Source: a virus
Strand: one strand, 5' to 3'
Length of the DNA: 33,048 bases
Virus record (IMG/VR): IMGVR_UViG_3300013120_000725
Coordinates: 1-33,048 of that record
The position numbers and the translations under genes were made by a program. Every line of letters begins with the position of its first letter. The first letter of the stretch is position 1. Under the pieces are notes generated by a model, which made no database searches, was not told where the DNA came from, and was given only the letters and a program-made list of their open reading frames with translations. Of this stretch, positions 3-31,475 are shown piece after piece.

Positions 3-1301
3 GAACCTTCCTTTCCTATAAATCCAAATATATTGCTTATACAAAATATAGATAAAGGGTATAGAGTAAAGCTAGCAGATACTTCAGCTTTCGCACCAAC
101 AGAATCTATTCTCAGCTCTCAACAAGCTGAAGCAATTTTTGGCAAGGATGCTCTGGATGATATAGATCAGCAAGGTACAATGATTTATGGTCCCAATACT
201 TTTGTGGAGGAGGTTCCGGAATCTTTGGAAAAAGTTGCCGCCTCTTTAGGAACAGCGAAGGCTGGAGGGTTTACTGTTCTTACTTCAGAAGGAAAATATC
301 ATGGAGCGGTTTTTACGGACGTGAAGAGTTTTAGCGGTCAGCAGCGAAATGGAGAGTTTTTTCTTGGGAAACATGCTCACGTTATTAGAGAAGATATTAC
401 AGGTTTTCCAAATCCAAATATTAAACAGCCCGATGACGCTCCAGCTCAGAATACAGAAGGGTTATTTTATAACCCACAGACTATGGAAGCCTTTGGTCCT
501 GTTTCAATACAAAGCCGAGTAAGGATTAAAGAAGCGAGCGATAAAGCTCATTTGGTAGCTATTACTGAGATGGGAGCCCCTATCGAGATACATATCTCAG
601 AGGGCATTAAAAAAGTAGCAGAGTATAAGAAAGATAAATTCTATCTACCCTCTACTTTCCGATTTGCCAAACTTGCAGGAAAAACAATCAGCCCTCTTGA
701 GGGAGAGATAATCTTAGAGGAGGCATATCCGCAGATAATCAAAATAGCTGCGCATACTGATGGGACCTATTCTCTTACAGGAAACGCTGCCGAGTTTATT
801 CCAGAAAGTGACCGGCTTAATGTTTCTGTTGCAGATGCAATTTTTGCAGCGAGATCCTTGGGTATGTCTCAAGAGCAGGCAACGGAAAAGATGGCGATGG
901 CTAATGTAGGTGCCAAAGGGGTTGTTGTTCGTGGAGAATTTCTCCCAATTACTCCTTATAATAAAAGAGTAGAGGCAATGTCTTCCTTTATTAAAAAGCA
1001 CGCTAGTCTTGTTCCTTCTCCTCCGGCACTAAGTGAGTTATTTAAAGTGGCCGCAGTGTTGGAGGATGGTACTACAGTAGATTCAATATTGTCTCTTGGT
1101 TTCCTAAAACCAGATACTGTAGATACCTTTGTAGAGTATCTGCCTTCTTTAGAGACTGCGCTGCACAAACTGGCTGAGCTTTTATTCTTTGTCCGCATGG
1201 GCGGTTCTCATATTCCTGAAACTGCGGTTGCCAGGGGTATGAAATACCTTGATGCTGTTATTACTGGCCTACGAAAATTAAAACAGACATTGGCTGTATA
1301 A
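3..1301 (+). CDS. Virion-associated protein of unknown function, 5'-partial
   Basis: The reading frame is open to the left edge of the window, so the gene probably begins upstream. The first possible start inside is a TTG at 33, which has no ribosome binding site. At least 430 codons are present. No enzymatic domain is recognised. Short Lys-hydrophobic-Ala motifs are spread along it (EKVAA, KKVAE, AKLAG, IKIAA, FKVAA, HKLAE), the same motifs seen in many structural proteins further along, which is why I treat it as a virion protein. The C-terminus is helical and basic. The next gene starts 2 bases after the stop, so the two are probably co-transcribed. A portal cannot be excluded, but I see no portal signature. 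Confidence 0.7.
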   Translation, partial: EPSFPINPNILLIQNIDKGYRVKLADTSAFAPTESILSSQQAEAIFGKDALDDIDQQGTMIYGPNTFVEEVPESLEKVAASLGTAKAGGFTVLTSEGKYHGAVFTDVKSFSGQQRNGEFFLGKHAHVIREDITGFPNPNIKQPDDAPAQNTEGLFYNPQTMEAFGPVSIQSRVRIKEASDKAHLVAITEMGAPIEIHISEGIKKVAEYKKDKFYLPSTFRFAKLAGKTISPLEGEIILEEAYPQIIKIAAHTDGTYSLTGNAAEFIPESDRLNVSVADAIFAARSLGMSQEQATEKMAMANVGAKGVVVRGEFLPITPYNKRVEAMSSFIKKHASLVPSPPALSELFKVAAVLEDGTTVDSILSLGFLKPDTVDTFVEYLPSLETALHKLAELLFFVRMGGSHIPETAVARGMKYLDAVITGLRKLKQTLAV

Positions 1302-1303
1302 AA

Positions 1304-2320
1304 ATGGAGCATCCATCAAAATATTATATTGATTATTTATTAACTTTGCCCCTTGCACAAAAAATAAAGACTGCGGAACTTATCAATTTTGTTGAGTCAC
1401 AATTACTTCCATTTGCTATAGCTCCCCCCGGAAAAGTACTTCAGGAGGAATTACGTAACTCTGAGACTGACCAATTGCTTCAAAAAGAAATTATTTACCT
1501 TCCTGGATATCTTGAAGAGCGCCGGGAAGCTTTATGTATACCTGAAGACTATCAGACAAATGGGACGTATCATTTACCTTCTATTAAATTTCAAAGGGAT
1601 TGTAAAATTTATGGGTTGGTGCGTCCGAATGAATTTACTCACACCGCTTTTGAAATTTTAGAACAGAACTACATTAGGGAGATGATTGAGTGTCTCCTTT
1701 TAGGGGATGTTCTTCCAGAGGATGTTGCTTATTATGTAAATGACAAACACTCATTATCTTTATGTCGTCTGGATATTATGCATTACCAACACTATTTCTT
1801 TAATACCAAGATAATGTCGGTTGAGAGTTGGATGCATTATTTCAAAAATTATGAGTCCGGGAGCTTTGATGGGATAGCCGGGTTTGTTGGTAAAAGAAAG
1901 TCAATCCTCGCCGGAGGCCCTCCGGTTGCTGCGATGTATACTAAAATAGATGTAGGCATTGAGAGAAAAACAATGTTGGATACTGTTTTACAGCGTATTT
2001 ATGCTATGTTCTGTGAAGCCGCAGCCGCACCACAATCAGCAACAAAAGTAAATAATATGGTCCGTCTCGGAAAAGCAGTGAAGGATATTTATACCACTGC
2101 TTCTCAGGATAGTTTACAGGACCTTAATCAGGTTTTACTTGCTATGAAGACCTTTGTTATTGCGGCCAAAGAACATAACGTACAAAGCCTTCACGAACTT
2201 TCTGCTGCTATAGAGGAAATAGACCAACTTAAAGGCCAAAGAGATTATGATAAACCCAGAGCAGCATTGATGCCCCCAGTTAATCTCGAAGGTGATTTTA
2301 TCGATGTGGAGGTAGAGTAA
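1304..2320 (+). CDS. Unknown protein, faint resemblance to small-terminase-type DNA-binding proteins
   Basis: This 338-residue protein starts with an ATG 2 bases after the previous stop. No clear Shine-Dalgarno is visible, so translation is probably coupled. Around residues 120-185 there is a pattern of an arginine-led helix, a leucine-rich segment, then Y-x-x-x-FF followed by W-x-x-Y. This recalls the helical region of many phage small-terminase-like proteins (Y..lFFdvr), but the match is weak and by eye. IKTAE near residues 21-25 is one of the window-wide KxA motifs. The C-terminal third is helical and Ala-rich. It sits about 3 kb before the large terminase, separated by the minus-strand RNase HII operon. 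The existence of the gene is firm; the function is open. Confidence 0.72.
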   Translation: MEHPSKYYIDYLLTLPLAQKIKTAELINFVESQLLPFAIAPPGKVLQEELRNSETDQLLQKEIIYLPGYLEERREALCIPEDYQTNGTYHLPSIKFQRDCKIYGLVRPNEFTHTAFEILEQNYIREMIECLLLGDVLPEDVAYYVNDKHSLSLCRLDIMHYQHYFFNTKIMSVESWMHYFKNYESGSFDGIAGFVGKRKSILAGGPPVAAMYTKIDVGIERKTMLDTVLQRIYAMFCEAAAAPQSATKVNNMVRLGKAVKDIYTTASQDSLQDLNQVLLAMKTFVIAAKEHNVQSLHELSAAIEEIDQLKGQRDYDKPRAALMPPVNLEGDFIDVEVE

Positions 2321-2350: not shown

Positions 2351-3088
2351 ATGACAAAACTCTCTGTTGATAGTAGAAAGCTTGTTAGGTTATTAGATAA
2401 TAAAGGAGTCATTTTTATCTCTAAAACAGATCAACATTCTCCGGCATTGTTTGACGCAACAACAAAGCAGGTGATTATAGAGGCCCCTAGTTGGACGACT
2501 TACCCTTCACATTTACTTGATAGACTTCGTAAGCGGATAAGTATGCCTGTAAAAAACAAAGGGGTATATGTTAACCCAACTAAGCTCGCAAAAAATACGA
2601 TGGATAGGTTGTCCCCAAATCGCCTAGCACCCTCTGCGAGCAGTGATAGAGCTGGTCTTGGGCTAACTTTGGGACATGAATTTGCTGAGAGAGCGGCGAT
2701 GAAGGGATCAAAAAGCGCAGTAAAAAAAGTAGTAAATAGTCTGGATAGCAGGCTTGGTATGAAGAGTGGCTTTTATGGGCATTTATCTCCTTCTGTCCTT
2801 TTACGTGAACACAATATGCTGAGAAATTATACAGGTCCTGGGGCTAAAGCTGCAGTGAGTAATTTCAAGCAGCTTCGCGCAGCATCAGGTGAAGCCAAAT
2901 CATTAAACTCCGCTATAAACAATATCCGATATAACGTGCCCTCTACATCTGGGCGTAATGTGTTTTCTTTTGGGGAGTCTCAGAGATTGTCGCGTCACGC
3001 TATTAGGCGACTTACTCCATATCTAAATAGGCAACTTGAAGCGACTGGTAGAGGTAATATAATCCCAAGAATCAAAGGGATACAATGA
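2351..3088 (+). CDS. Hypothetical protein with zincin-like HExxE motif
   Basis: The gene encodes 245 residues from the ATG at 2351. The true N-terminus may instead begin at 2323 if the eight-T run is slipped. Residues 107-113 read LGHEFAE, followed about 30 residues later by a second histidine in GHLSPSVL (H144) and an LREHN segment (E153, H154). HE-x-x-E plus downstream His/Glu is suggestive of a metal site, as in gluzincin-like folds, but the canonical second His of HExxH is absent, so peptidase activity is a guess. The protein is basic, with many Arg and Lys. It overlaps the DUF192 gene by 4 bases (ATGA), a sign of coupled translation. Confidence 0.7.
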   Translation: MTKLSVDSRKLVRLLDNKGVIFISKTDQHSPALFDATTKQVIIEAPSWTTYPSHLLDRLRKRISMPVKNKGVYVNPTKLAKNTMDRLSPNRLAPSASSDRAGLGLTLGHEFAERAAMKGSKSAVKKVVNSLDSRLGMKSGFYGHLSPSVLLREHNMLRNYTGPGAKAAVSNFKQLRAASGEAKSLNSAINNIRYNVPSTSGRNVFSFGESQRLSRHAIRRLTPYLNRQLEATGRGNIIPRIKGIQ

Positions 3089-4587: not shown

Positions 4588-4895
4588 TAATTTATATCCT
4601 TTTGGTTATAGAGGGTTGTTTCAGAAAGAGGCACCTTTAAACACTCAATAGCCTGCTCATCGAAGAAATCAAGAGCTTTAGTTATATTAGTAAGCCCGCC
4701 TGAGCATTCTCGTAAGTCAACTGTAAATAAAATTATTCTACTGTCTTCATGACTATTCAAAGATACAACATAAATATAGTTTTTCTTTCCCATTGCTTTT
4801 TGGAACTTTATAAATTCATTATTAGCTATTGGGCTCTTGAACCATATACCAAAAGTAGCAGCGATCTGACAGGTTTTTAAAATTGCATTATCCAT
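4587..4895 (-). CDS. Small unknown protein, RNase HII operon
   Basis: This is a 102-residue protein with an AAAGGAG five bases before its ATG on the minus strand. No family is recognised. It appears compact and alpha/beta, with a strand pair around residues 40-60 (NYIYVVSL, SRIILFTVDL). The stop shares one base with the start of the RNase HII gene (TAATG), and its own start overlaps the upstream gene by 8 bases. Such tight coupling suggests the products are made in a fixed ratio. The strong ribosome site and operon context support it as a real gene. Confidence 0.75.
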   Translation of the reverse strand: MDNAILKTCQIAATFGIWFKSPIANNEFIKFQKAMGKKNYIYVVSLNSHEDSRIILFTVDLRECSGGLTNITKALDFFDEQAIECLKVPLSETTLYNQKDIN

Positions 4896-7590: not shown

Positions 7591-7597
7591 GGACCGG

Positions 7598-7626: not shown

Positions 7627-7646
7627 CGATCGTCCTGTTTTAGGGC

Positions 7647-7705: not shown

Positions 7706-8605
7706 ATGCAGGATATCTTAAATTCCTTTGAAACGCTTGGCACAGAAACTTATACCCCTGAAACTCTTCGTGGAATTGCCCGAGAAGGGGCAATGACTTT
7801 TCTACAAGATAATGAAAAGAGTCTCAGTGATATTCTGGCTGCCCTTTTATCAAAAAATCCGGGACTTAATCAGGATCAGGTTCATCGTATTGTAGAGCAG
7901 GCTAATGTAGATGTCTTTACACAAAAGTTTAAAACAGAAGAAGACAAGAATGTGCAATTTGATCCGGCAAGTTCTAAGGTTCTTTGGGACGGTATCATTG
8001 CAGACCGCTTAGATCCTATTGTACGGGAAGACAAACTTAAAGAGGATTCCTTTGCCTATTCTACTCCGCCAGAAGATTATAAAGCCAGCTTCAGTCCCTC
8101 TCTTGAAGAGATATTCAAGCATGAGGGAAATGGTGACCTCCTTCCTGCCGAGCCTGGGCGTAAGGAAATCCTTGAAGCTTCTTCTGTAAAGGAAAGTTTG
8201 GGCAATGAACAGGCTAAAACTGCAAGTCTTCAGTATAAAGTAGCTCATATTGCCGAAGATTTTGGAGAAGAAGCAACAAGAGCCTTTCTTGATGGCTCTA
8301 CTTCTCTGGGAGAGTTGAGCGTTATTTGTAAGTATGCCAGTCCAAATAATATAGTGGCTCGGGAGCTAAGCGGACTGATGCTCGATCAAATTATTGAGAA
8401 GACAGGGTCAAGTGTAAAAAAGCTGAAGGAGAGTCTTCACGTTCTGCGATTTAGGACACCAAATCCCGAACACGCTTTAGTGAAATCGGCGGCGGCGGCT
8501 GCTTCCTATATGGAAGCTTTGGCTGTACAGACGGATATTCTTGCTGCTACAGAGAACAAGCACAACGAGATTATGCAGCAGATAGGGCTCGATTATGGAA
8601 AATGA
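7706..8605 (+). CDS. Virion-associated protein of unknown function
   Basis: This 299-residue, acidic and largely helical protein has GGAG six bases before the ATG. No family is recognised. The first 65 residues are helical, with a PGLNQDQVHRIVEQANVDVF segment. From residue 170 a KxA-rich stretch follows (AKTAS, YKVAHIAEDFG), then helices and an Ala-run (KSAAAAAS). The same motif types appear across the head proteins, suggesting a shared virion partner or maturation step. The next gene starts within its last 11 bases. It occupies the slot where a portal is often found after terL, but its size is small for a portal. Confidence 0.75.
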   Translation: MQDILNSFETLGTETYTPETLRGIAREGAMTFLQDNEKSLSDILAALLSKNPGLNQDQVHRIVEQANVDVFTQKFKTEEDKNVQFDPASSKVLWDGIIADRLDPIVREDKLKEDSFAYSTPPEDYKASFSPSLEEIFKHEGNGDLLPAEPGRKEILEASSVKESLGNEQAKTASLQYKVAHIAEDFGEEATRAFLDGSTSLGELSVICKYASPNNIVARELSGLMLDQIIEKTGSSVKKLKESLHVLRFRTPNPEHALVKSAAAAASYMEALAVQTDILAATENKHNEIMQQIGLDYGK

Positions 8606-9341
8606 GATAGTCAGAACTATAAGATTAGCCAAAGCAATAAACAGGGCTAGGACGAAACTTGGATGTGATCATCGTTGGTACACAAAGACAGCGCAATGGC
8701 GCCCGGAAGAGATAGAGTGGAATAGAGAATTTGATTTAAAAGAGAAAGGCCATAGATTAAATAAGAGGTTAAGTCGGTTTAAGGCTGTGGACTCTATAGT
8801 TAATGCAATTAGTCGAGTTCCAGGGCTTCAGGATTTTGTAAAGCCTATTGCTACTGGCGCCGGTGAAAAGGTTAAAGGTAGACTATTCAGACCCACAGGG
8901 GTTCGAGGAACAATAAAAGCAAACCCTCTGATGGCTTATCCTTTGATTGTTGGAGGAAGCTTGGCAGCGGGAGCGGGAGTTGAACGGGTAGGCGGTAAAG
9001 TACTAAGCCTACTTCATGAGAAGGCCACAAGGGAAGGGGATTTTCAGCAGTTATTGGACTCCAACCCTGATCTGAAGAAGCAATATCCCGCCAAAGCAGT
9101 AAGGTCTGCCTTTGAGACTATACGAAGATATAATAAGAAGATATCTGCGGACCCTCTGGTTACCGGGCTATTAGTACGGAACGCGGTAGCCAGTTCTACT
9201 ATGCAGAGCGGTGCTCCGGTATTTGACCTTAAAACAGTAAATGAGTTAATCCGTGCGGAGCGAGACGCTGTTAAGCCTTCTGTTATAGGCGAGAGCGTTA
9301 GGCGCGGGACGGAAAAAGCACTCCCTTCAGGAGAACTATAA
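8595..9341 (+). CDS. Basic virion-associated protein with hydrophobic segment
   Basis: This is a 248-residue basic protein that overlaps the previous gene by 11 bases. A KTAQW motif occurs at residues 31-35, and a hydrophobic, Gly/Ala-rich segment at about 111-129 (PLMAYPLIVGGSLAAGAGV) could insert in a membrane or pack in a helical core. The middle and C-terminus are helical and charged. No known domain was found. Its composition is shared with the other Gly/Ala-rich proteins of the window, which may be internal head proteins. Confidence 0.72.
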   Translation: MENEIVRTIRLAKAINRARTKLGCDHRWYTKTAQWRPEEIEWNREFDLKEKGHRLNKRLSRFKAVDSIVNAISRVPGLQDFVKPIATGAGEKVKGRLFRPTGVRGTIKANPLMAYPLIVGGSLAAGAGVERVGGKVLSLLHEKATREGDFQQLLDSNPDLKKQYPAKAVRSAFETIRRYNKKISADPLVTGLLVRNAVASSTMQSGAPVFDLKTVNELIRAERDAVKPSVIGESVRRGTEKALPSGEL

Positions 9342-9368: not shown

Positions 9369-9938
9369 ATGCTTGAGAAAGTGGCGGCTCTTACAGAAAT
9401 TAATCAGAATCCTTTTCCTTATCTTGCTGAAATGGAGGAAATGGAAAAAGAAGCGGGCAGATTTACCAGAGGTGTTGCTGCAGGTAAAAAAGGCCTAAAC
9501 AAGTTACATTTTGTTGGTGGGGCTTCTGCTGGCAGAAGTGGTGGACAACTTCCCAATGCAGCTTCAAGAGGAATAGATGCAGCACCTGGCGTAGCTTTAA
9601 GGGGCGTAGCAGGACTAAGAGGTGCGGGAAGCAAAGTCCTGAATACCTCCTTAGCAGATGTTGGCAGCGGTCTTGCCGGGGGTGCCAAATCATTGGGTAG
9701 TGGAATTGCCGGCGGTGCATCTGCTATTGCAGGTAGTCGCGGCGGTCAAGCTATTCAAAATATAGGTCAGCTTGGGGCTTATGGTGCAAGCACCAAGCCT
9801 GGCATAGCAGCTCTTGGTGTAGGTGCTGGTGTGGGCGGAACCCTCTTAGCAAAGAAGCTTGTTCAAGCCCTTAAAGCTCGTAGAGCAGCACCTCCATCGA
9901 AACTACAGCAACTTAAGGCAGCGATTGGTCTTGGTTAG
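9369..9938 (+). CDS. Gly/Ala-rich protein with NPFPYL and GQLGAYGA modules
   Basis: The gene encodes 189 residues from an ATG preceded by AAAGGAGG, one of the best ribosome sites here. The N-terminus reads MLEKVAALTEI with NPFPYL at 14-19. Residues 32-125 are low-complexity Gly/Ala/Ser. GQLGAYGA at 133-140 leads into a hydrophobic segment and a basic tail. The N-terminal box recurs in the protein at 29352 and the C-terminal box in the protein at 29854, so this looks like a two-module relative of both. The function is unknown; an internal or ejected virion protein is a reasonable inference. Confidence 0.75.
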   Translation: MLEKVAALTEINQNPFPYLAEMEEMEKEAGRFTRGVAAGKKGLNKLHFVGGASAGRSGGQLPNAASRGIDAAPGVALRGVAGLRGAGSKVLNTSLADVGSGLAGGAKSLGSGIAGGASAIAGSRGGQAIQNIGQLGAYGASTKPGIAALGVGAGVGGTLLAKKLVQALKARRAAPPSKLQQLKAAIGLG

Positions 9939-9961: not shown

Positions 9962-11827
9962 GTGATATTTCGGGAAGTTATGGATAAACTACTTACATTT
10001 TCTACTGTTTCAGATAAAGGAGAGCCTTTGCTCCGACCTTTGAATGATGGTAGGCGTGTGCTTACAAAGTTAGCGAATCCAATGCTTCCTGGGGTATTGC
10101 AATTTATGAACAAACTCCAACCCGATCAAGATAAATTGTATTTGCTCTTATCTGCTTTAGGTACCAGCGAAGTATGGGGAGCGAATATCAATGGAGATTT
10201 TTTTAATAGAGTAGGCCTCAAACATCCTCGGACAGAGCAGGAAGATTGGGGATATAAGACCTTTGAGGTCTACGGGCACCCTTTCCGGCACCACAAAAAC
10301 CAGATAGAAAAGGGAGACAAACCATATGGAGAGGTTCATAAAGCTCTTTGGAACCCCAGAATGGAGCGAGTTGAACTAATTGTCTCCTTAAACAGAAATG
10401 AGACAGTACAACTTGCTGGTGGAGACCTTCTTGATCGTCTTGATAGGGGAGACCCCCTAGATATTTCGATGGGTTGTAAGGTTCCATTCGATATCTGTTC
10501 CATTACAAACCCAAACTGGAAACAATGGGAATATAGATGCCCTAAAGAAATGCTCCTGGAGCATTTTTCTTTATTAGGTTTACCTTATGGTGCTTCTCTT
10601 AAGGCAAGGCTTGAGGCTATGCGACAAGGAAGGGTGGGACTTCCTGGGCTGGCAATTACTACAGACGAATATAGTGATTGGGCAAAGAACCAGCTTGGAC
10701 GCACATTGCCGGATGGGCGTCTTGTTTATGTAGTCAATCTATTTCCAAGATTTTTTGATATCTCTTTTGTGTTTTTAGGGGCAGACAAAACAGCTAAAGT
10801 TTTGGCAAAGCTGGCAAAGGTATACCAAGTACCGTCTGCTTATGCTGCTCTGGAAGCTGGTATGGTTTCCGATAACATGGACTTTTTTAAAAGAGAAAAG
10901 ACAGCTACTCCTTTTACGGACTTCGTGAAACAAAGTGCAGAAATAAAAACCAGCGATATAGACAAGGAAATTAAATCTAACTTATCGGAAGACAATATAC
11001 AATTTCTTGGTGCCGAAGAGCCCGCCATTCCAGATGCCAAACTAGAGTCTTTGTCAGAGTTGCCTCTTGGCAATATCCTTAGTACTCTTGCTGGGTTAGG
11101 TGTGGCTCTAAAGCCGTCAGAATTTCAGAAAATTGTGGTCATAAAAATGGGTAAGCCCGCACGGGAATGGGGTATGTCTCAAACAAACCAGATATTCTCC
11201 CCTTGTAAGGATATGTCTCCAGTCGGAATGAGTCCTGAGATGTTCATGCCTGAATTAGGTATGAGTATGTCAGGGCTTATCCCCCATAGATCAGCTTTTT
11301 TACCCGTTCTAAAAAGACGGGTTGCACAAATTATAGTAGTAAAGCCGCAGCACACGGACAATAATCCTCCAGCAGAGGAGGCGTCTACGCCGCTTTTAGA
11401 TAAGATATCTGCAGCCTACAATGGCTACCGAGATGCTCTTATCAAAACAGCTGCGTCGTGCGTGCCTATTATCGAGGCAATTCCTGAAATATATGACGTA
11501 ATTGTTAAGGAAGATCTCGATGACGCATTCTTCCGCGGTGTAAAGCTGGCAAGGGTTGATCCTAAACTCTTGACAGGTCTGGCATTATTTGGGATCGCAC
11601 CCGCTATCTATCTTGCTTCGGCACATCAAAGGAAGAAGCAGCAAGAAGGTAAATCATTAAGCGGGCCTGGAAAGCTTGTGGCTGAATACCCTCTTTCTAC
11701 ATCAGCGGCGCTCACTGTAGGTGGGGTGTATGGAGCAAAGAGGACTCAGTCAATATTGAGCAATCCTGCAGTAAAGAAAGCGCTGTACGATCTCAAACTT
11801 GCAGTAAATCAACCCAGAACCTTTTGA
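9962..11827 (+). CDS. Putative head maturation protease with long C-terminal extension
   Basis: The product is up to 621 residues. The start is GTG 9962, or more likely ATG 9980, which has GGGAAG close before it. Residues 100-180 contain GHPFRHH (H106, H110, H111), a G-x-V-x-x-A-x-W-N-x-x-M-x-R-V-E-L-I-V strand pair, and DPLDISMGCKVPFDIC with S169. This His...Ser arrangement resembles prohead proteases of the herpesvirus-like S78/S80 type (compare the Ser of the T4 gp21 VSSRG), and it lies just before the scaffold-like and capsid genes. The remaining 350 residues exceed a normal protease: a Met-rich stretch at 404-437, KxA motifs (DKTAKVLAKLAK, REKTA, IKTAA) and a hydrophobic segment at 536-552. 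The extension may be an internal head protein fused to, or released by, the protease. Confidence 0.6.
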   Translation: MIFREVMDKLLTFSTVSDKGEPLLRPLNDGRRVLTKLANPMLPGVLQFMNKLQPDQDKLYLLLSALGTSEVWGANINGDFFNRVGLKHPRTEQEDWGYKTFEVYGHPFRHHKNQIEKGDKPYGEVHKALWNPRMERVELIVSLNRNETVQLAGGDLLDRLDRGDPLDISMGCKVPFDICSITNPNWKQWEYRCPKEMLLEHFSLLGLPYGASLKARLEAMRQGRVGLPGLAITTDEYSDWAKNQLGRTLPDGRLVYVVNLFPRFFDISFVFLGADKTAKVLAKLAKVYQVPSAYAALEAGMVSDNMDFFKREKTATPFTDFVKQSAEIKTSDIDKEIKSNLSEDNIQFLGAEEPAIPDAKLESLSELPLGNILSTLAGLGVALKPSEFQKIVVIKMGKPAREWGMSQTNQIFSPCKDMSPVGMSPEMFMPELGMSMSGLIPHRSAFLPVLKRRVAQIIVVKPQHTDNNPPAEEASTPLLDKISAAYNGYRDALIKTAASCVPIIEAIPEIYDVIVKEDLDDAFFRGVKLARVDPKLLTGLALFGIAPAIYLASAHQRKKQQEGKSLSGPGKLVAEYPLSTSAALTVGGVYGAKRTQSILSNPAVKKALYDLKLAVNQPRTF

Positions 11828-11839
11828 GGAGTGTAACAC

Positions 11840-12517
11840 ATGAGTACATTTAATGACTTACTTGGGCAACACTACCAGACAACACAACCGCAAGGTGCTG
11901 TTGATATGGAAGAGCTGTCCAAGTTGGCTGCAGAAGCTGCGGCTGAGGCGATTGAAGAGGGTGGCGGTGATATTGAGAACCTCTCCGAAGAGGAACTCGA
12001 AGCTGTCGCGTCTGAACTCTCTGGTGAGCCTGGTGAAATAACTGGTGAAGAGGAACAAATTGCTGCGGCGGTTATGGAAGATCCGGAACTTCTGGGTGAA
12101 ATCCTTGAAGCGGACCCCGAACTGGCTGCAGAAGTTGAGCAGGCTCTTGTGGCTGAAGAAGGCGCCCCTGCGGCAACGGAAGAGGCCGTAATGAACGAAG
12201 AAGTAAAAGAAGCTGCTCGACAAATTGCGGTAGCTGACTTTACTGGTCGGCACATGGCTCATAGTATGACAGATGAGCTGAATAAAATTGCTGTGGCACA
12301 GGCACAAGGCCAGCAAGTACAGTTCCCTATGAATACTCAACCGACTGCTCGGGAAAAATTGGCGTATGCCCTTCAAAGCGGGCAGGTATCCAAGACAGAC
12401 ATTTTGCGAGAAAAGATTGCACAGAAGTTAGCTGGCAATCCGCCCATGACTAAGCAAGCTTCTGCCGACCCCGGCACTGAGCTGCTTAGAAATGCTGTGA
12501 GGCGTCTTATCTATTAA
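11840..12517 (+). CDS. Acidic scaffold-like protein
   Basis: This 225-residue protein has GAGGAG before the ATG; the ribosome site overlaps the previous stop. Residues 20-125 are strongly acidic and Ala/Glu-rich, with almost no aromatic residues. The C-terminal 80 residues turn basic and hold repeated motifs (NKIAV, REKLAY, REKIAQKLAG). An acidic helical body and a basic C-terminal helix are typical of phage scaffolding or head-core proteins, and the place between protease and capsid fits. The REKLAY box is repeated in the protein at 12786. A scaffold role is inference from composition and position. Confidence 0.75.
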   Translation: MSTFNDLLGQHYQTTQPQGAVDMEELSKLAAEAAAEAIEEGGGDIENLSEEELEAVASELSGEPGEITGEEEQIAAAVMEDPELLGEILEADPELAAEVEQALVAEEGAPAATEEAVMNEEVKEAARQIAVADFTGRHMAHSMTDELNKIAVAQAQGQQVQFPMNTQPTAREKLAYALQSGQVSKTDILREKIAQKLAGNPPMTKQASADPGTELLRNAVRRLIY

Positions 12518-12562: not shown

Positions 12563-12793
12563 ATGATTGAACTGCAGTGGCTTACAAAACTAGCATTAGG
12601 AAGACAAAGCCTGAGGAGTGACACTAACTCTAAAAAAGCTGGTGTGAGGACTCCGCCATCATTGGCCGGTGACCCTATAAGGTTAGCTAAAGGCAGTAAG
12701 TTACAAACAACGCTATCTAAAAGGGTTGCGGCCTTTGAGGAAAAAAGGCCACTGCCGCTTCGTCAAACAAATGAAAGGAGATGGCATGGCTGA
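12563..12793 (+). CDS. Small basic KxA-motif protein
   Basis: This 76-residue ORF starts with ATG without a clear Shine-Dalgarno and overlaps the next gene's start by 8 bases. It has no known domain. It carries LTKLAL (7-12), IRLAKG (39-44) and KRVAAFEEK (53-61), the same motif types as its neighbours, which supports it as a real gene despite its size. It is rich in Arg, Lys and Ser. The poor ribosome site and the hairpin upstream leave some doubt about its expression. Confidence 0.55.
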   Translation: MIELQWLTKLALGRQSLRSDTNSKKAGVRTPPSLAGDPIRLAKGSKLQTTLSKRVAAFEEKRPLPLRQTNERRWHG

Positions 12794-13967
12794 CGCAATC
12801 CATGACATGCTCGCTCGTCGGATTGATGCTCTAAGGGAAGAGACTGTAAAAACAGCCGCTGTACCACAGGAGCAGCCCGCCGAGCAGGTATTGGAACAAG
12901 CGTTCAACCCGGTTAATCTCGGTGAGCTGGAAAAGGTCGCCGCGCAGCTCGACTACGTTGTTCCACGCCTGGGAGGTATCCAGGAAGATCGGGGCAATAG
13001 AGAGAAGTTGGCCCAGCTTCTTCGCATGAAAATGGGCCAGGAGTCTCCAGTAGTTACAGCTGCCCCGAGCGGACCCCCGATCATCGGGCAATCGGCATCC
13101 AACCCTATGGGAGGAAGTACTCAACACGGTACTCCAATGACAACTCCTATGCAGGAAGGGAATGCAATTAAAACAGATGAGGTAGTTAATCCTGTTGCTA
13201 AAGCTAATCGCAGCGGTAGCACGAAAAAACGTCTCATCGACAATTTAACATCAACTCAACCAGAACGTGACGGCGGAGAAGGAAAACAGCCTAATGTCGT
13301 TACGACAGGACAGCACTCTGCAAGTAAGCCGAGTGGGGGAGGTAATGAAGCACGGAAATTAATCCAGTCTAATATGGCTGCGATTGATTATACCAAGAAA
13401 AGTGCTGACTCTCCTGTGAAGAAGCAGCTAGCTCAGGTGTTGAACGAGCCGGCCCACAGTAAGAGGACTGATCCAGTTATTGGAAAAATGTGGTCAAAAG
13501 CAGATGAAGTCTCCAAGATTGCTTCTGCCGTACAGCGTATGACTGGTCAAGGACTTTCTAACCGTGAAAAGCTGGCGTATAAGATCTACCAGCGTAAGCT
13601 GGCGCAAGCAATCCCTCCAGGTGGAGCACCGCCTGCAGGACCTCCTCCGGTACCTCCGGCAGCCGCACCTCCTATGGGTGGAATGCCTCCAGGTGGAGTA
13701 CCTCCGATGGGCAGCCCCGAACAGGGTGGAATGCCTCCGGAGATGCAGACTCCTGGTGACCCGGTAGCCGTAGCTAAATTGGTCGCTGCCAAGAAGCAAA
13801 AGGATGCAGAGTCTGCCACTATTGGTGCTGCTCTCGCCGCTGTGAAGACTGGCCAGCCTCCTGAAGCAGGGGTTGTATCAGATGAGGAAATTGAAGCATT
13901 GATGCAGGGTGGTATGCCAGCTCCTGGTGGACCTGCTCCTGTACCTGGAACAGAAGGAGGCATGTAA
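12786..13967 (+). CDS. Pro/Gly/Met-rich virion protein with REKLA motifs
   Basis: The product is 393 residues from the ATG at 12786, chosen because GAAAGGAG lies 5 bases before it; the frame extends upstream to 12726 without a ribosome site. The N-terminal part has VKTAA, ELEKVAAQL and NREKLAQLL. The middle (residues 90-200) is Ser/Thr/Gly-rich and probably disordered. NREKLAYKIYQRKLAQ then leads into a Pro-Gly-Met-rich stretch of about 60 residues (PPGGAPPAGPP, GGMPPGGVPP). The C-terminus again ends in Gly-Met-Pro repeats. No enzyme domain is seen. Position suggests a head-core or capsid-associated protein, possibly processed by the maturation protease. Confidence 0.72.
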   Translation: MADAIHDMLARRIDALREETVKTAAVPQEQPAEQVLEQAFNPVNLGELEKVAAQLDYVVPRLGGIQEDRGNREKLAQLLRMKMGQESPVVTAAPSGPPIIGQSASNPMGGSTQHGTPMTTPMQEGNAIKTDEVVNPVAKANRSGSTKKRLIDNLTSTQPERDGGEGKQPNVVTTGQHSASKPSGGGNEARKLIQSNMAAIDYTKKSADSPVKKQLAQVLNEPAHSKRTDPVIGKMWSKADEVSKIASAVQRMTGQGLSNREKLAYKIYQRKLAQAIPPGGAPPAGPPPVPPAAAPPMGGMPPGGVPPMGSPEQGGMPPEMQTPGDPVAVAKLVAAKKQKDAESATIGAALAAVKTGQPPEAGVVSDEEIEALMQGGMPAPGGPAPVPGTEGGM

Positions 13968-14344
13968 TGCAAAAGCTTAGTGCAACAAAGGTAGCAGAAG
14001 CGGTAGCAGCGGCAAGTGTTCTTTTGAAACAGGCCAGTGCGGAAATCAAATACTTGCGTGAGGAAAACGTACGACTGCAAGGTGTCGTGAATAACAGCAA
14101 TTTCGAAAAAAGGGCACAGTCCTTAGCCCGCCGGATGGAAGGTGCAGGAATCGATTCGAACTTGTCTTTTGAAGACAAAGTCAATTTTGTTGCTCAAAGA
14201 GCACAACAGATCGATACTCTTGAAGCCGCCATGGACTTCCATGAGAAGCGAGCATCCAGTGGTAAAGTCGGAACATTGCTTAGCGAGGAACCTTCAGAAG
14301 CGATCAACACCAAAACTCGTCTGCTTGACTATTTAGCCAGTTAG
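13967..14344 (+). CDS. Small coiled-coil protein
   Basis: This 125-residue protein starts on the last base of the previous stop (TAATG), so translation is coupled. The N-terminus contains ATKVAEAVAAASVLLKQAS, followed by a heptad-like segment (AEIKYLREENVRLQGVV) at about 24-41. It is Ala/Glu/Arg-rich and almost fully helical. No family is recognised. Given its place just before the decoration-like and capsid genes, a small scaffold or core protein is plausible. Confidence 0.72.
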   Translation: MQKLSATKVAEAVAAASVLLKQASAEIKYLREENVRLQGVVNNSNFEKRAQSLARRMEGAGIDSNLSFEDKVNFVAQRAQQIDTLEAAMDFHEKRASSGKVGTLLSEEPSEAINTKTRLLDYLAS

Positions 14345-14915: not shown

Positions 14916-16034
14916 ATGAGTGCGAGCGCACATTACATCAATCAAATGCTCTCCCAGAAACTGGATAATCCCGAGGAACGGGCTAAAGTTGCCCAGTTAA
15001 CAGGAGATTATATCCGGGACCATCTGCGGGAGAGTGCGTATGTTAGAAGCATCATTGTTCCGAAGCAGGTCACTCGTGATGAGTGCCAGGTTTCCTTGGA
15101 ACATGATACTATTTTGAAGGTTGTAGAAATTGAACCAAACAGCAAGGCAATGACCGTGGATTTCCGCGGACAACCTACTGCGCGGATTATTTCTGCTCCT
15201 CGCGTTGGAATATCCTTCTTTACTATCACCTCAGAGCGGTTTGAGAAGACTGAGCAGGAACTGTTGGCATACACAATGCCGATTACCAAAATCATTGAGG
15301 ACAATACAGACAAAGATATTGAAGAGATAGAGGACAGGGAATTTACTCTGCATATCGAAGCATGTATCCAGGCTGTACAGCTCGAAGAGACTGGTGGTAT
15401 TGCATTCAACAGGACCAATGTACTGAATGGTACAGCAGCTTCTTTCTCTGTCATTAAAGGCCGACTGGCTCTGGAAGCTGGTGGTGTGGATGACTTTACT
15501 GTCCGTCCGATTCAACGCCCCGACTTTGTAGAGCTGAAGAAGCTTCTTTCCGGTAACCGCCTCGCTCCGAAAGTCATTCTCATGACCGAGCCGGATTGGG
15601 ATGATATCGGTCAGTGGACTGCTGAGGAAATGGGTGACCCTGGTCAGTGGGAAACCACAAAAGAAGGCTACAAGGCAAACACAGTGTTGGGTATGAAGGT
15701 CATCCGTACCATCAAAACTAACATTCTTAGAACAGGAAATGTTTACATATTTACCGACCCGGATTTCTTTGGTCGGTTCTATGTCTTGAATAACACTAAA
15801 TTCTACATTGACAAAGAAGTCAATTTGATTTGGTGGCAAGCATGGGAAGACATTGGTATGGGCTTCCCGAACATTTCTGCTGTACGCAAGCTGGAGCTTT
15901 ATCGGGGTTCAGTGACTCCTGATTTCACCGATGCCGGTTTTGCTGATAGGCTTCCGGTTGCTGAAGAAGATATTGAAGTGGAGAATAACTACTTGGACGA
16001 AGGACTTATGTTCCCGAATATCAGGCAGTATTAG
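14916..16034 (+). CDS. Major capsid protein, HK97-fold candidate
   Basis: This is a 372-residue protein with AAAGGAG before the ATG. The size suits an HK97-type capsid subunit, and the gene is followed by a strong hairpin, as is common for capsid genes. An N-terminal helical segment (residues 1-45) could be the arm. The body alternates beta-strands and helices, with a long helix around 95-120 (TSERFEKTEQELLAYTMPITK) that may be the spine helix, and a tail with GNVYIFTDPDFFGRFYVL and NLIWWQAWEDIGMGF. RAKVAQLTG near residues 22-30 is a KxA motif in the arm and a possible processing region. The assignment rests on position, size and pattern; no exact family was matched. Confidence 0.8.
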   Translation: MSASAHYINQMLSQKLDNPEERAKVAQLTGDYIRDHLRESAYVRSIIVPKQVTRDECQVSLEHDTILKVVEIEPNSKAMTVDFRGQPTARIISAPRVGISFFTITSERFEKTEQELLAYTMPITKIIEDNTDKDIEEIEDREFTLHIEACIQAVQLEETGGIAFNRTNVLNGTAASFSVIKGRLALEAGGVDDFTVRPIQRPDFVELKKLLSGNRLAPKVILMTEPDWDDIGQWTAEEMGDPGQWETTKEGYKANTVLGMKVIRTIKTNILRTGNVYIFTDPDFFGRFYVLNNTKFYIDKEVNLIWWQAWEDIGMGFPNISAVRKLELYRGSVTPDFTDAGFADRLPVAEEDIEVENNYLDEGLMFPNIRQY

Positions 16035-20757: not shown

Positions 20758-21994
20758 CAGACTATATCCCCAAAACAATGCAATTTCTCCAAAAATTCAG
20801 GAGCAATATGATAAATTGGACTTCTTCATGCGTCTGAAAGGGGCAAGTCTGAATTCCTCCGCAGGGGAATTGGCTCTGTTGCAAAAAGCAGCTACAGAAG
20901 CAGCTCAGGACTCAAATAAACAAGGAGCTTTTCGCGCATTGGACGCACTACAAAGTGCGAAAGCTATTAATTCTATGCAGAAGACTGCCCAAATCGTCTC
21001 AACCAGTCCCGTTTCCGATGTTGGGCCGCATGATCTTTGGGCAGATAAGTTCAAAGGAACTTCTTTCTATAATCAAGCGCTGCAAATTAATTTAATTGAG
21101 AAAGAAAGCCAAATATTCCACGCACAACGAGGAGAAGAAGAAGAAGCAAAGAGGAAGGCTCGTTGGCAAGAGGAGGAAGTCTCTAGGCACGAGGAGGACA
21201 GGATAAAATACCGAATTGAGCAGGAAAAGCTTAAATTGGAAGCCGAACTTGTTAAAGCAAAAGTGCAGGAGGCGGTAGCAGGTACAGAAGTCACACCTCT
21301 ACAATATGATCCTACTATTGAGAAACAAGCCCGTCAGCTTAAATATAAACAGGCAATAAAATCTCGAAGCAAGATTGCACAGAAACTTGGACTAAAGAAA
21401 ACTGCCGCCGGGGTCTTACCGAAAACTACTAAAGTTCCGATTATGATTACCACTGGCCTGGCCGGAGCGGCTTCAGCAATTCGACAAACTTATGCCCCAA
21501 ATGATGCTAAAAGCAAAATGGAGAAGATGTTTTCCGACATGAAGAAGGGTAAGCCGTCCGAGAAGATCGAGCAGATCGCTGACAGTGGGCTGGCGATTTC
21601 CAAGAAGATGAAAGAGATGCCTGTGGTGTCCGGTCTGATTGGTGGAGTGGCAGGAACTGCCTTGGGCGCCCCGATTGCTAAGTTGCTGACTAAGGATGCC
21701 CCAGTTCGGCCAGGGTTTTTAGACAATTTGAAACAGTTTGGGTCTACCAAAAACGCCGCTCCAAGGTATATGAAGGAGATCCTTCACTTAACCAAACCTG
21801 TTTCCGGTAGGGGAATGCCTGCGGTTGTTGCTGCGGAGGAGCTTGGCCCGATGAACGCCAGGAGAAGCAAGATGCGGGCCGCAGTACTGGAGAAATTGAA
21901 ACAGGTACATGCTTCGCCAGGACCAAGAAAGCATTTTGGTCCTGATGCAGAAGTGAAAGACGCTTATTCTTTAGCGTACAAAGAGCTTCGGTAA
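20750..21994 (+). CDS. Coiled-coil virion protein with hydrophobic segments
   Basis: The gene encodes 414 residues with GAGGAG before the ATG. Residues 115-175 are a long charged coiled coil rich in Glu, Lys and Arg. KxA motifs occur at 78-80 (QKTAQ), 208-210 (SKIAQ) and 217-220 (KKTAA). Two hydrophobic Gly/Ala stretches lie at about 230-245 and 291-311. No enzyme domain is seen. Mixed coiled coil and membrane-like helices recall inner virion or ejection proteins, or a minor tail component. Base use shifts near 21530-21900 to more G and C than upstream, which may mark a module boundary. Confidence 0.72.
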   Translation: MTDRLYPQNNAISPKIQEQYDKLDFFMRLKGASLNSSAGELALLQKAATEAAQDSNKQGAFRALDALQSAKAINSMQKTAQIVSTSPVSDVGPHDLWADKFKGTSFYNQALQINLIEKESQIFHAQRGEEEEAKRKARWQEEEVSRHEEDRIKYRIEQEKLKLEAELVKAKVQEAVAGTEVTPLQYDPTIEKQARQLKYKQAIKSRSKIAQKLGLKKTAAGVLPKTTKVPIMITTGLAGAASAIRQTYAPNDAKSKMEKMFSDMKKGKPSEKIEQIADSGLAISKKMKEMPVVSGLIGGVAGTALGAPIAKLLTKDAPVRPGFLDNLKQFGSTKNAAPRYMKEILHLTKPVSGRGMPAVVAAEELGPMNARRSKMRAAVLEKLKQVHASPGPRKHFGPDAEVKDAYSLAYKELR

Positions 21995-22004: not shown

Positions 22005-22955
22005 ATGAAACTGACCGAATACCTTGAGAAACTTGGACAAGATGGGATGCTCCGTAAGAAGCTGGCAGGGATGAATAACCTCCAGCTTATCAAGTATGCT
22101 CAGGACAATAATATACCTCTGCCTCTTGAACTGAAGAAGGAGGCCCTCGGTATAAAAACGGCCGAGGAAGCTCCAGTCCTCGCCAACACCCTACTTGGTG
22201 CCGGAATTGGTGCTTTAGCTGGTGGGTCCGGACGAGCAGCAGAACATCTTTATGATGTAAAACGAAACAAGGCGCTCCGCGCTCTCAGAGGGAAGATTAT
22301 CCGAGGAGCCATCAGTGGTGGAGCTGTCGGTAGTGTATGGGGAATGGCCAGAGCTACAGCAGGCAATCCAGGCATTGGCGACTCCATACTCAAATCCGGA
22401 GCGACAAAGGAGGCCCAGATTGCTGGATCCCTTTTGCGTGGTGCAGGCAGTGTATTAGGTAAAGCCCAAAAGCACGTACCTACCTACACAAAATGGTTGA
22501 CTGGAGTTCAGGGCGCGGCCACTCCTGCCGCAATGCAACAGGCTGGACAAGCAAGTCAGATCTTCGGCAACATTCGTGCCGGAGCTAAAGGAATGGGCAT
22601 GATCCGACATGCCGGCGGCGGGAGTTTCATGCATGGACTCGGGCAGGCCCTTGCAGATCCAAGAGGTAGAGCTGCACTCGGCGCAGGCGCCGGCAAATTT
22701 CTACAGAACGCTCGTACGTCAGGTAGACAGATCGCTACAGGAAATCTCGGTCAGGCTGCTAAGGGAGCAGGTAACTTTTCTAGCAGCGTGAATGCTTTAA
22801 TGAGAGGCACCTTTGGTAAGGGAGCCTATCGTAATTACATGAGACAGCAGGGTATGGCTCCCGGCACGCAATTATGGCACCTTGCCAGATCAGGCTTTGG
22901 TGCAAGCCAGGCCAGAGGTCTCGCCAACAAAGCAATGAAGAAATACGTGTACTAA
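22005..22955 (+). CDS. Gly/Ala-rich virion protein
   Basis: This 316-residue basic protein has AAGGAG before the ATG. The N-terminal 55 residues form charged helices with KKLAG and IKTAEE. Residues 57-75 are a hydrophobic Gly/Ala stretch (LANTLLGAGIGALAGG). The rest is Gly/Ala/Gln-rich with many Arg and Lys and few acidic residues. No domain is recognised. It resembles the proteins at 9369, 29352, 29854 and 30288 in composition. The stop overlaps the next start by one base (TAATG). Confidence 0.72.
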   Translation: MKLTEYLEKLGQDGMLRKKLAGMNNLQLIKYAQDNNIPLPLELKKEALGIKTAEEAPVLANTLLGAGIGALAGGSGRAAEHLYDVKRNKALRALRGKIIRGAISGGAVGSVWGMARATAGNPGIGDSILKSGATKEAQIAGSLLRGAGSVLGKAQKHVPTYTKWLTGVQGAATPAAMQQAGQASQIFGNIRAGAKGMGMIRHAGGGSFMHGLGQALADPRGRAALGAGAGKFLQNARTSGRQIATGNLGQAAKGAGNFSSSVNALMRGTFGKGAYRNYMRQQGMAPGTQLWHLARSGFGASQARGLANKAMKKYVY

Positions 22956-23800: not shown

Positions 23801-24137
23801 TGATATAAGGCTAAGAGCAAAAATTGCTCAAATAACAGAAGAGCAATTAAAAAAACAAAGACAAGCTCGATATAAACGTATGCTGCTTTATAGTCTTGCC
23901 GGGGCAGCAGGTTACGGTGCGGGTACTGGGGCTTCTCATCTTGCAGCGCGTTTTGCTGCTAGTACAAATTACGGCAAAAAGATAATGGGAATGCCTATTT
24001 CTGAACGGGCCAGAAAACTGGCCCCTTACGTAGGTTTAGGAACCGGAGCAATGGGTCTTGCAACGGCTATGATTTGGGGCGAGGCTAAGAGAAGGGCGGA
24101 AGAGGAAGCTACCATAAAGGACCATATAAGAGAATGA
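23793..24137 (+). CDS. Small protein with two hydrophobic helices
   Basis: This 114-residue protein starts with GAGGAG 10 bases upstream. The N-terminus is a charged helix with RAKIAQITEE, a KxA motif. Two Gly/Ala-rich hydrophobic segments lie at about 30-47 and 78-95, separated by a basic loop, and the C-terminus is charged. It could be an integral membrane protein (a holin-like topology is possible) or another internal virion protein; its KxA motif favours the latter. It overlaps its neighbours by 8 and 4 bases. Confidence 0.68.
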   Translation: MLDDIRLRAKIAQITEEQLKKQRQARYKRMLLYSLAGAAGYGAGTGASHLAARFAASTNYGKKIMGMPISERARKLAPYVGLGTGAMGLATAMIWGEAKRRAEEEATIKDHIRE

Positions 24138-29351: not shown

Positions 29352-29861
29352 ATGAAGAAAACAGCTCAACAAGCTCTTTGGGAGATAAGTAATAATCCCT
29401 TTCCGTATTTGATAAAGGTGGCTATCTCTGGTTCTCCAGCAGGTAATGCGGGAGGGAGGTTTATTCAATCTCCTATTTTAGATGTAAGAGGAAACCCTTA
29501 TATAGTTGATAGGTTTAGCGGCAAACCTGCACCTACTCCCAAACCTCCAGGGAGAATAGGCTCGCTTATACAGAATGCAGGTAGATCCCAACTAGCTCAA
29601 AAAGCTAGTTGGTACGGGACGAGGGCTCAAGGAGGACTTATGCGTGGATTACCCTATATGGCAGCCTCTCTGCCTATTATGGGTACTTTGGCTGGTATAG
29701 CCACCCGGAGACCAACAGCCCCACCTCCCGCAAGCTCAGGATTGTTGCGATTACTTTCAAGGCACAAAGGGTTGGCTTTAGCCGGCGGGGCTGCGGGAGC
29801 TGCGGGAATGTTTCTTAGAGGGCGCAATAGTGCAAGAAAGGAACAGCAGTATTATGAATAA
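29352..29861 (+). CDS. Gly/Ala-rich protein with NPFPYL module
   Basis: This 169-residue protein has GAAGGA before the ATG. It begins MKKTAQQALWEIS, with NPFPYL at 15-20 and IKVAIS after it, closely matching the N-terminus of the protein at 9369. The middle is Pro/Gly-rich. A hydrophobic segment lies near 100-118 (YMAASLPIMGTLAGIA) and a Gly/Ala stretch near 140-157. The C-terminus is basic. The function is unknown; the shared module suggests a common targeting or maturation signal. It overlaps the next gene by 8 bases. Confidence 0.72.
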   Translation: MKKTAQQALWEISNNPFPYLIKVAISGSPAGNAGGRFIQSPILDVRGNPYIVDRFSGKPAPTPKPPGRIGSLIQNAGRSQLAQKASWYGTRAQGGLMRGLPYMAASLPIMGTLAGIATRRPTAPPPASSGLLRLLSRHKGLALAGGAAGAAGMFLRGRNSARKEQQYYE

Positions 29862-30285
29862 GCTCGGGCAAGCTTTGGCAGTTTCTCATCTATGTCGTCA
29901 ATCGCAAGTTGCTGATATGGAAAAGGTGGCTGCTTTTGGGCAGGCAATAAAAAATATTGTTCAACTCGGGAGGTACGGCGCTAGTAGAGGTACACCTCAA
30001 ATGCTGAAAAATTGGGGCCAGCTTGGTGCTTATGGAGCAAAACAACACCCATATATGGCCGCTGGAGCAATTGCTGCGGCTGCTTCTCCGCTTTTGTATA
30101 TGGGAGGCAAAGCCTTAGTGCGTCGTGCAGCTATGCGTGGAGCCCAAAAAGGAGTAGGCGGTATGTTTGGTAAAGGAGCTTTTGGACAATGGTGGAAAAA
30201 ACAACCTTTAGGAATTAAAGGCATCATGGGCGCCAGCGGGGCTGGGGCTTCTTTTGGTCTTGGTAATAGAGCTGTGGGAAGGTAA
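29854..30285 (+). CDS. Gly/Ala-rich protein with GQLGAYGA repeats
   Basis: The product is 143 residues from the ATG at 29854; a GTG at 29830 is possible but less likely. After MEKVAAFGQ at 22-30, two related units occur, VQLGRYGAS (36-44) and GQLGAYGA (55-62), followed by a hydrophobic stretch (YMAAGAIAAAASPLLYMGG) and a basic Gly-rich tail. The second unit is near identical, in protein and DNA, to one in the protein at 9369, evidence of duplication within the genome. The ribosome site is weak (AAAGGAA, distant), so coupling to the previous gene is likely. Confidence 0.7.
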   Translation: MNKLGQALAVSHLCRQSQVADMEKVAAFGQAIKNIVQLGRYGASRGTPQMLKNWGQLGAYGAKQHPYMAAGAIAAAASPLLYMGGKALVRRAAMRGAQKGVGGMFGKGAFGQWWKKQPLGIKGIMGASGAGASFGLGNRAVGR

Positions 30286-30287
30286 TA

Positions 30288-31475
30288 ATGGGTTCTTCAT
30301 CTTTTATGCCCGGCGCGCAAATGGTACAAACAGCAGCTATGGCTGGTGGAGCTGCATCGTTGAATCCCTCTCTTCGGCATGTCCCATTATTACCTGGAGC
30401 CCCAAATACAGGAATTTCCGGACCCAGAATAAATTCCGGTAGCACGGCAAGGATACCAAAGTCCCCAAAAGTAATTAAAGCCCCTAAAGCTTCAACAACA
30501 ATGGGGAAACTTGCTTCGGTGGATAGTGTTTGGAATTATCCGGAAGAATATTTGCTGAAACAAGCACAACTCGCGGTTCCTATAACCCTGGGTACTTTGG
30601 GAGTAGAAAATACTTTACGACTGGGAAAAGGAATTGGAGAAGGAACACAGCTTATTGCAAAGAAATTGGCTAAGTTAATTGTTACGGGAAGTAAAGCAAC
30701 CCACAAAGGTATCGGAGCAACAGCCGGATATTTAAAAGGCAGAAGTCTAGGAGGCAGGGCCTTAAAACCGGAAACAACTTCTGCTCTTTTTCCTGGGGCA
30801 TCCGGTAAGTCTTTTTCTAAAGGAATGAATAAAGGGTTTGCTGCTACGGCTGATAAAGCCCCAGCGACTATGCGGGGAATGAGATTCGCTGATAAATATA
30901 AAATCCCTCTCATTGCCGGAGGTGGTGGGACAGCGCTATCCGTTGCGGCCCGTAGACCCAGACAAGAACCAGACTTCTTTGAAAATCCAAAAACCGGATC
31001 TGATACAGGAGACAAAGTAAGGTCCTACTTAAAGCACGTTGCTATGTTTACTGGGGGCTCTGCGGCGGTTGGTGGGATTACAGGCCTTGCAGGAAAAAAG
31101 CTTAGGATACCGGAAAAGGCAATCATACTTCCTGTTCCAGGAATGACTGAAGTATTGTTCGGTACTAATGTTGCGAATACCGCAGCTAGAGCAGGAAGAG
31201 CTATCGTAAAAGGGCAAGGCAAACCTGCAGCTAAAAAAATTATACAGAGTGAAGTTGATCACCTAAAAGGCCAGCTTACCGGAGCACAGCAAGCCCTTGC
31301 TCATCCCGCTGACTATTTAGCAGGAGAAGGAAAACGGGTGGCAGATACGTCCAAAGCTCTATACACTAGAGCCAAAAACGTGCTACCTTCGAGATACAAG
31401 GCCGCTGATCGGTCTACTGAAGACCTTGTAGCTTTGACCAAACTGTTTGGGAAGGCTACAAGAAAAACACTTTAA
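30288..31475 (+). CDS. Large Gly/Ala-rich basic protein
   Basis: This 395-residue protein has GGAAGG upstream of the ATG. The first 70 residues are Pro/Ser/Gly-rich and probably disordered. MGKLASVDSV then WNYPEEYLLKQAQLA at 82-96 is a looser version of the NPFPYL box. The rest alternates Gly/Ala-rich hydrophobic stretches (at about 97-107, 208-222 and 252-267) with basic segments. No known domain is seen. It lies between sheath and tube and could be a minor tail, tape-measure-like or ejected protein; it is short for a tape measure. Confidence 0.7.
   Translation: MGSSSFMPGAQMVQTAAMAGGAASLNPSLRHVPLLPGAPNTGISGPRINSGSTARIPKSPKVIKAPKASTTMGKLASVDSVWNYPEEYLLKQAQLAVPITLGTLGVENTLRLGKGIGEGTQLIAKKLAKLIVTGSKATHKGIGATAGYLKGRSLGGRALKPETTSALFPGASGKSFSKGMNKGFAATADKAPATMRGMRFADKYKIPLIAGGGGTALSVAARRPRQEPDFFENPKTGSDTGDKVRSYLKHVAMFTGGSAAVGGITGLAGKKLRIPEKAIILPVPGMTEVLFGTNVANTAARAGRAIVKGQGKPAAKKIIQSEVDHLKGQLTGAQQALAHPADYLAGEGKRVADTSKALYTRAKNVLPSRYKAADRSTEDLVALTKLFGKATRKTL

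Follow-up and report, generated by a model that had tools for sequence, protein, structure and literature searches.

The IMG/VR virus record IMGVR_UViG_3300013120_000725, all 33,048 bases of which make up the window analysed here, encodes many proteins that carry a short motif, a lysine and an alanine separated by one residue (K-x-A; in counts a dot stands for any residue). Judging from sequence, a predicted structure and analogy with known systems, this motif is likely to be both the recognition and the cleavage code of the lineage's prohead protease, the product of the gene starting at position 9962 (genes are named here by their start positions). Lysine would occupy P3 and alanine P1, with the cut probably falling between that alanine and the serine or alanine that follows. 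The record itself is probably a piece of a larger myovirus genome, with a sheath-like gene (24888), a terminase (5319) and a capsid protein of the HK97 fold (14916).

The window holds 52 copies of K[VTLI]A, where within-protein shuffles average 16.5±4.0 and none of 2000 reached 52; for EK[VTLI]A the count is nine against 1.0. The excess is specific to lysine with alanine two residues on, and nothing comparable is found for other spacings (observed/expected: K..A 64/63, KA 57/64, A.K 65/63) or other letters (R.A 57/47, E[VTLI]A 13/17, D[VTLI]A 4/14). An earlier note on this sequence had reported the motif in 17 proteins, and each of them does carry at least one K[VTLI]A, including the one listed at 29854, whose gene starts at 29857 (or at 29830, with GTG). 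The shuffles thus bear out the recurrence as a whole, with only genes 3, 9962, 11840 and 12786 individually significant at p<0.001 and a motif excess at p<0.05 in 23793 and 29352. The suggestion that the motif runs across most non-enzymatic virion proteins has to be given up: seven genes (14367, 16113, 17756, 18344, 22952, 24134 and 32333) have no copy, and the protease, with seven, is among the richest carriers. The terminase, RNase HII and the fibre, where the motif was said to be scarce, have none, though only about 0.4-0.5 copies would be expected in each. Outside the four significant genes, nearly all of the excess is N-terminal: residues 1-35 hold 12 copies where 2.0 are expected, and the remainder of these proteins 15 against 11.4.

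A scan with the single 9962 sequence found no relatives, whereas a profile built from the 9962 protein alignment retrieved 419 in IMG/VR. The 80 loci kept from these, together with earlier ones, gave 69 non-redundant loci including the window; the other 68, all from uncultured phages, were used for the motif statistics. Of all residue pairs spaced 1 to 5 apart, K.A shows the strongest enrichment in them (4314 vs 2509). The logo estimated from the motif-carrying families reads [LMF]-[EV]-K-[TLVIE]-A-[SAEG]-[AV], with 0.85 bits at P5, 0.73 at P4, 1.3 at P2, 1.4 at P1' and 0.67 at P2'; its consensus is [LMF]-E-K-[TLVI]-A-[SA]-[AV]. Glutamate directly precedes the lysine in 35% of the estimated true sites. 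Proline is depleted from two residues before the lysine through one after the alanine; P1' favours S, A, E or G, and most bulky residues are depleted there along with proline. Because the small-residue preference and the proline and bulky-residue depletion fall on the position after the alanine, a cut after the alanine is favoured. A weight matrix trained on the relatives' motif families, with the window left out, recovers 24 window sites where 1.9 would be expected.

Among families, the motif is concentrated in those of the head core. The families of the protease, 7706, 13967, gene 3 and the scaffold-like proteins show strong enrichment of K.A or EK.A, and that of the capsid protein shows enrichment of EK.A (59 vs 7.5). 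The terminase family is depleted (0.65x), the families of the decoration protein 14367 and of 22952 are at expectation, and most tail families have no enrichment. Among the families outside the motif set, the first 40 residues hold 126 copies against 45.8, so that in the relatives as in the window there are N-terminal peptides ending at a predicted protease site, as in the T4-type capsid-targeting sequence. In a whole relative of 186.7 kb, EK.A stands at 21 against 4.7 in the head region (30-60 kb) and mostly near expectation elsewhere, with a lesser K.A excess at 10-20 kb. The family of 17225-17755 is an exception to this head-core rule (K.A 42 vs 16, EK.A 0), perhaps owing to one conserved structural position.

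The protease and its own candidate sites are as follows.

9962..11827, plus strand: predicted prohead (capsid maturation) serine protease of 621 residues with N- and C-terminal extensions (AlphaFold2 model, VIA-align, 69-sequence alignment)
10088..10804, plus strand: ordered catalytic domain, residues 43-281, with invariant H110-H111 and S169 (predicted local distance difference test, pLDDT, of the AlphaFold2 model; alignment)
10067..10075, plus strand: K36-L-A38 ahead of the catalytic domain, predicted autoprocessing site (K in 69/69, A in 66/69, Ser in the other three; disordered segment 23-38)
10808..10816, plus strand: K283-L-A285, directly after the last strand of the domain (K in 58/69, A in 57/69)
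10892..10906, plus strand: R-E-K313-T-A315 in a hypervariable linker past the domain (K in 46/46 and A in 44/46 where the column is present; disordered 309-325)

The AlphaFold2 model covers residues 1-350, and its pLDDT reaches about 90 or higher across most 10-residue blocks of the catalytic domain. The first 29 rows of its VIA-align comparison are solely herpesvirus proteases and T4 gp21 (Z 9.6 for varicella-zoster virus 1vzv, 9.3 for pseudorabies virus, 8.7 for T4 gp21, 5jbl), and unrelated folds begin at 5.0; the fold, as modelled, is that of the T4 gp21/herpesvirus capsid proteases. Foldseek found no significant match to the model in the PDB; in BFVD it matched gp19 of phage G (E 2e-15) and many proteins labelled 'prohead protease'. 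Neither Pfam nor PHROGs recognises 9962 or the scaffold-like proteins. H110, H111 and S169 are kept in 69/69 aligned sequences, and H111 and S169 are likewise invariant in an alignment with Salmonella phage Arash, Vibrio phage D69 and phage G. Residues about 182-230 form an insertion of some 45 residues in the catalytic domain, adjoining conserved cysteines, that the homologs of Arash, D69 and phage G do not have. At the first site a hydrophobic residue stands two before the lysine in 68/69 sequences and glutamate directly before it in 38/69. The linker around E-K-x-A at 312-315 varies freely in length and sequence among relatives. Short motifs conserved in the disordered linkers to either side of a protease are the pattern to be expected from autoprocessing. 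The protease precedes the scaffold and the capsid protein in the head operon (9962, 11840, 12786, 13967, 14367, 14916), and, from family offsets, the relatives keep the same order.

T4 provides a positive control for this kind of pattern. The gp21 code [LI].E occurs 46 times against 22.4 (2.06x) in gp67, gp68, gp21, gp22, gp23 and gp24, and 65 times against 58 in the other T4 proteins, which indicates that a genuine prohead protease code leaves such an enrichment in its substrates. Of the three functions that the earlier note proposed (a prohead packaging signal, attachment to a core protein, cleavage by the 9962 protease), cleavage is the best supported, because of the fold, the K-x-A sites around the catalytic domain itself, the subsite-like preferences and the T4 footprint.

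The prohead proteases vary widely in specificity (PMC7411985). Those of T4, the phiKZ-type phages and SPN3US cut after glutamate (PMC5694885), and gp245 of SPN3US cuts after A-X-E (P3-P2-P1) with serine favoured at P1' (PMC10052503). The latter enzyme removes N-terminal propeptides, among them two with lengths of 20 and 24 residues; it cuts long propeptides repeatedly and cleaves itself (PMC10052503, PMC5694885). It and gp175 of phiKZ resemble the system proposed here in being herpes/T4-type serine proteases with a two-anchor P3-x-P1 site and a P1' serine preference, and in cutting both themselves and the N-terminal propeptides of capsid, portal and internal proteins (PMC5694885, PMC10052503). 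They differ in having glutamate at P1 and a small residue at P3, whereas in the window the prediction is lysine at P3 and alanine at P1, with additional preferences for a hydrophobic P5 and a glutamate P4; moreover, autocleavage of gp245 is reported at the C-terminal side only, and that of 9962 is predicted on both sides. T4 gp21 shares the fold, the many scaffold sites and the confinement of site enrichment to head substrates, but its specificity is [LI]-x-E, and its 212 residues do not include the roughly 300-residue C-terminal region of 9962. The short capsid-targeting peptides of T4 end at a cleavage site, so that targeting and cleavage can coexist in one peptide. Herpesvirus assemblin gives the best structural matches and likewise occupies the N-terminal portion of its longer precursor, which, unlike that of 9962, has the scaffold in cis. 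Assemblin cleavage sites end in alanine, followed by serine; no requirement for lysine at P3 is known.

The predicted substrates, with window and family counts given as observed/expected, are listed below.

3..1301, plus strand: head-core protein, 5' truncated, seven K[VTLI]A, the best of its sites being EKVAA (residues 76-80) (p<0.0005; relatives' family K.A 410/132)
7706..8605, plus strand: head-core protein of the family with the highest K.A enrichment (587/170 in 65 members); window site KTAS at residue 171 (weight-matrix score 4.4)
11840..12517, plus strand: predicted scaffold, acidic and Ala/Glu-rich, five K[VTLI]A (p<0.0005; same-position family in relatives EK.A 219/32.5)
12786..13967, plus strand: predicted core or scaffold protein of low complexity, six K[VTLI]A (p=0.0005; same-position family 468/243)
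13967..14344, plus strand: predicted core protein, small and coiled, with KVA (8), KQAS (21), EKRAQ and EKRASS (94) (family K.A 234/70, EK.A 78/7.8)
14916..16034, plus strand: major capsid protein, HK97 fold (PHROG 2522; HK97 and D3 capsids are the top Foldseek matches)
14985..14993, plus strand: K24-V-A26 near the N-terminus of the major capsid protein (nearly all of the listed relatives have K[LIVM]A there, and K24 and A26 are each conserved in at least 90% of the aligned sequences)
9378..9455, plus strand: N-terminal cassette of gene 9369, K-x-A at residues 4 and 27 flanking INQNPFPYL
29358..29423, plus strand: N-terminal cassette of gene 29352, K-x-A at residues 3 and 22 flanking ISNNPFPYL
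29923..29931, plus strand: MEKVAAF at residue 23 of gene 29857 (weight-matrix score 5.6)
22059..22067, plus strand: KKLAG at residue 19 of gene 22005 (motif scan, N-terminal count)
8685..8693, plus strand: KTAQ at residue 31 of gene 8595 (family EK.A 31/6.7)
1367..1375, plus strand: KTA at residue 22 of gene 1304, a weak candidate whose family has no enrichment
23820..23828, plus strand: KIAQ at residue 10 of gene 23793 (N-terminal count)
20981..20989, plus strand: QKTAQ at residue 78 of gene 20750 (weight-matrix score 3.9)
30507..30515, plus strand: MGKLASV at residue 74 of gene 30288 (weight-matrix score 4.7)

With respect to the assembly pathway, the protease would enter the prohead core along with the scaffold and core proteins 3, 7706, 11840, 12786 and 13967, and would release itself by cuts in the linkers on both sides of its catalytic domain. 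Several cuts would then break the scaffold into pieces that are small enough to exit, and N-terminal peptides, mostly of up to about 30 residues, would be trimmed off the capsid and internal proteins. In the small internal proteins the peptide ahead of the site may double as a prohead-targeting signal. The otherwise different small proteins of genes 9369 and 29352 have in common, at 9369-9455 and 29352-29430, an N-terminal I[NS][QN]NPFPYL between two K-x-A, followed by a Gly/Ala/Arg-rich hydrophobic sequence; from its layout, this resembles a targeting cassette that could be removed from proteins destined to be internal or ejected. A tblastn search of 20750 and 29352 against phages gave no matches, leaving these tail-block carriers as orphans.

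Several points weigh against cleavage after K-x-A by 9962. The register of the cut (after Ala, Lys or Glu) is based on conservation only. Ser169 and His110/111 are likewise candidate catalytic residues by their invariance. As for the third catalytic residue, which is Asp in the T4-type enzymes and His in those of herpesviruses, the alignment has several invariant or nearly invariant acidic residues (E138, D177 and D266). The site at 313-315 is gapped in 23/69 relatives, and cuts at the residue 3-4 sites of 9369 and 29352 would free just 5-6 residues. In the major capsid protein, K24-A26 lies within a predicted helix (residues 19-40, pLDDT about 80), and the stretch around it is conserved beyond the motif, so that the fold could explain the conservation; going by the model, this protein is the weakest case for a cleavage site.

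The main rival is that K-x-A is a docking or packaging motif that binds the scaffold, or a non-catalytic part of the protease, and recruits proteins into the prohead uncut. The multiple spaced copies in the scaffold-like proteins would suit such a role, as would the helical copy in the capsid protein and the N-terminal copies in small internal proteins, some as near the end as residue 3. We nevertheless regard docking as unlikely, given the motif's conservation on both sides of the protease's own catalytic domain, the strong preference for small residues after the alanine with depletion of proline, and a P3-x-P1 format that is that of known prohead cleavage codes, of which the T4 code leaves the same footprint.

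Far less probable is a T4-like cut after the glutamate of [LMF]-E-K, for which K-x-A would form the prime-side context. The enrichment of glutamate before the lysine would fit it, and so would the glutamate-directed enzymes cited above, but at the first protease site glutamate is kept far less than the lysine and alanine, and the glutamate codes are near expectation: [LI].E, the T4 gp21 class, at 1.20x in the window (z 2.5) and 1.16x in the relatives' motif families; A.E and S.E, the SPN3US/phiKZ class, at 0.92x and 1.04x in the window and both at 1.10x in the relatives. K[TVIL]A stands at 3.1x and 6.0x, respectively, and glutamate-directed cleavage was rejected on this comparison. The assemblin-type hydrophobic-x-Ala|Ser site ([VLI].A[SA]) is equally flat (0.97x and 1.04x), against 2.5x and 5.9x for K.A[SA]. 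A cut after the lysine, [LMF]-E-K|x-A, is just as improbable: it would make the hydrophobic residue of the first protease site P3 and the lysine P1, and specificities do differ widely among prohead proteases, but the small-residue preference with its proline and bulky-residue depletion follows the alanine, and T, L, V or I is preferred after the lysine. The last alternative, a functionless by-product of helix-forming or Lys/Ala-rich composition, has hardly any credit and was rejected on the shuffle and T4 controls: several carriers are indeed Ala/Glu/Lys-rich and partly helical, but the excess survives composition-preserving shuffles while other spacings and R.A stay flat, the motif is conserved in disordered hypervariable linkers and concentrated in the head region, and K.A is not clearly enriched in the T4 head proteins (20 vs 13.9, z 1.8).

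The K-x-A cleavage code may reach beyond the uncultured relatives. A search with the capsid protein returned nine viral contigs, with Salmonella phage Arash and three Vibrio phages as the only isolates. In Arash, EK.A occurs 22 times against 6.5 in the 'structural' proteins (head block 14 vs 1.4, other structural proteins 8 vs 4.8) and nine times against 8.1 in the remainder, three of these nine belonging to the head-block gene gp225. The 9962 homolog of Bacillus phage G, gp19, is also matched by tblastn (E 8e-6); it is much shorter (300 residues), and its LVKTAAK and LEKVASK align to K36-A38 and K283-A285 of the window. The aligned N-terminal position of the phage G capsid protein has RVA. 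K.A occurs 60 times against 35.5 in gp1-gp30 of phage G, and within positions 1-50000 of that genome the excess is seen in gp7, gp14 (the portal), gp19 and gp21. This suggests that the code extends to this long-studied giant phage. A broader proposition is that a large and almost uncultured myovirus lineage, extending to Arash, Vibrio phage D69 and perhaps phage G, matures its heads by a K-x-A code that doubles as an N-terminal address for loading internal, possibly ejected, proteins into the prohead; we offer it tentatively, at rather less than even chances.

We found no description of a K-x-A prohead cleavage motif in the open-access literature; within that literature, the kind of protease is known and the Lys/Ala specificity appears to be new. 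If the cleavage reading is right, sequence by itself is enough to read the cleavage code of a phage lineage about which little is known. This would name the protease, its substrates and their mature ends, flag unannotated proteins as probable head components or ejected cargo, and place a Lys/Ala specificity alongside the prohead proteases of T4 and giant phages, which are directed to Glu. Other uncultured phages may be open to the comparison used in the T4 control, in which the composition-corrected excess of a motif is set side by side for head and non-head proteins.

Some features of the window lie apart from the motif. The sheath-like protein (24888-29285, 1465 residues) matches sheath families and relatives only in its last ~480 residues, with ~980 residues ahead of this conserved part. 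Two minus-strand islands (3464-5250 and 7051-7653) interrupt the plus-strand structural block and hold RNase HII (4012-4587) and a helix-turn-helix-like protein (7051). Finally, a DUF192 protein (3085-3537, Pfam E 7e-16) is flanked by head genes.

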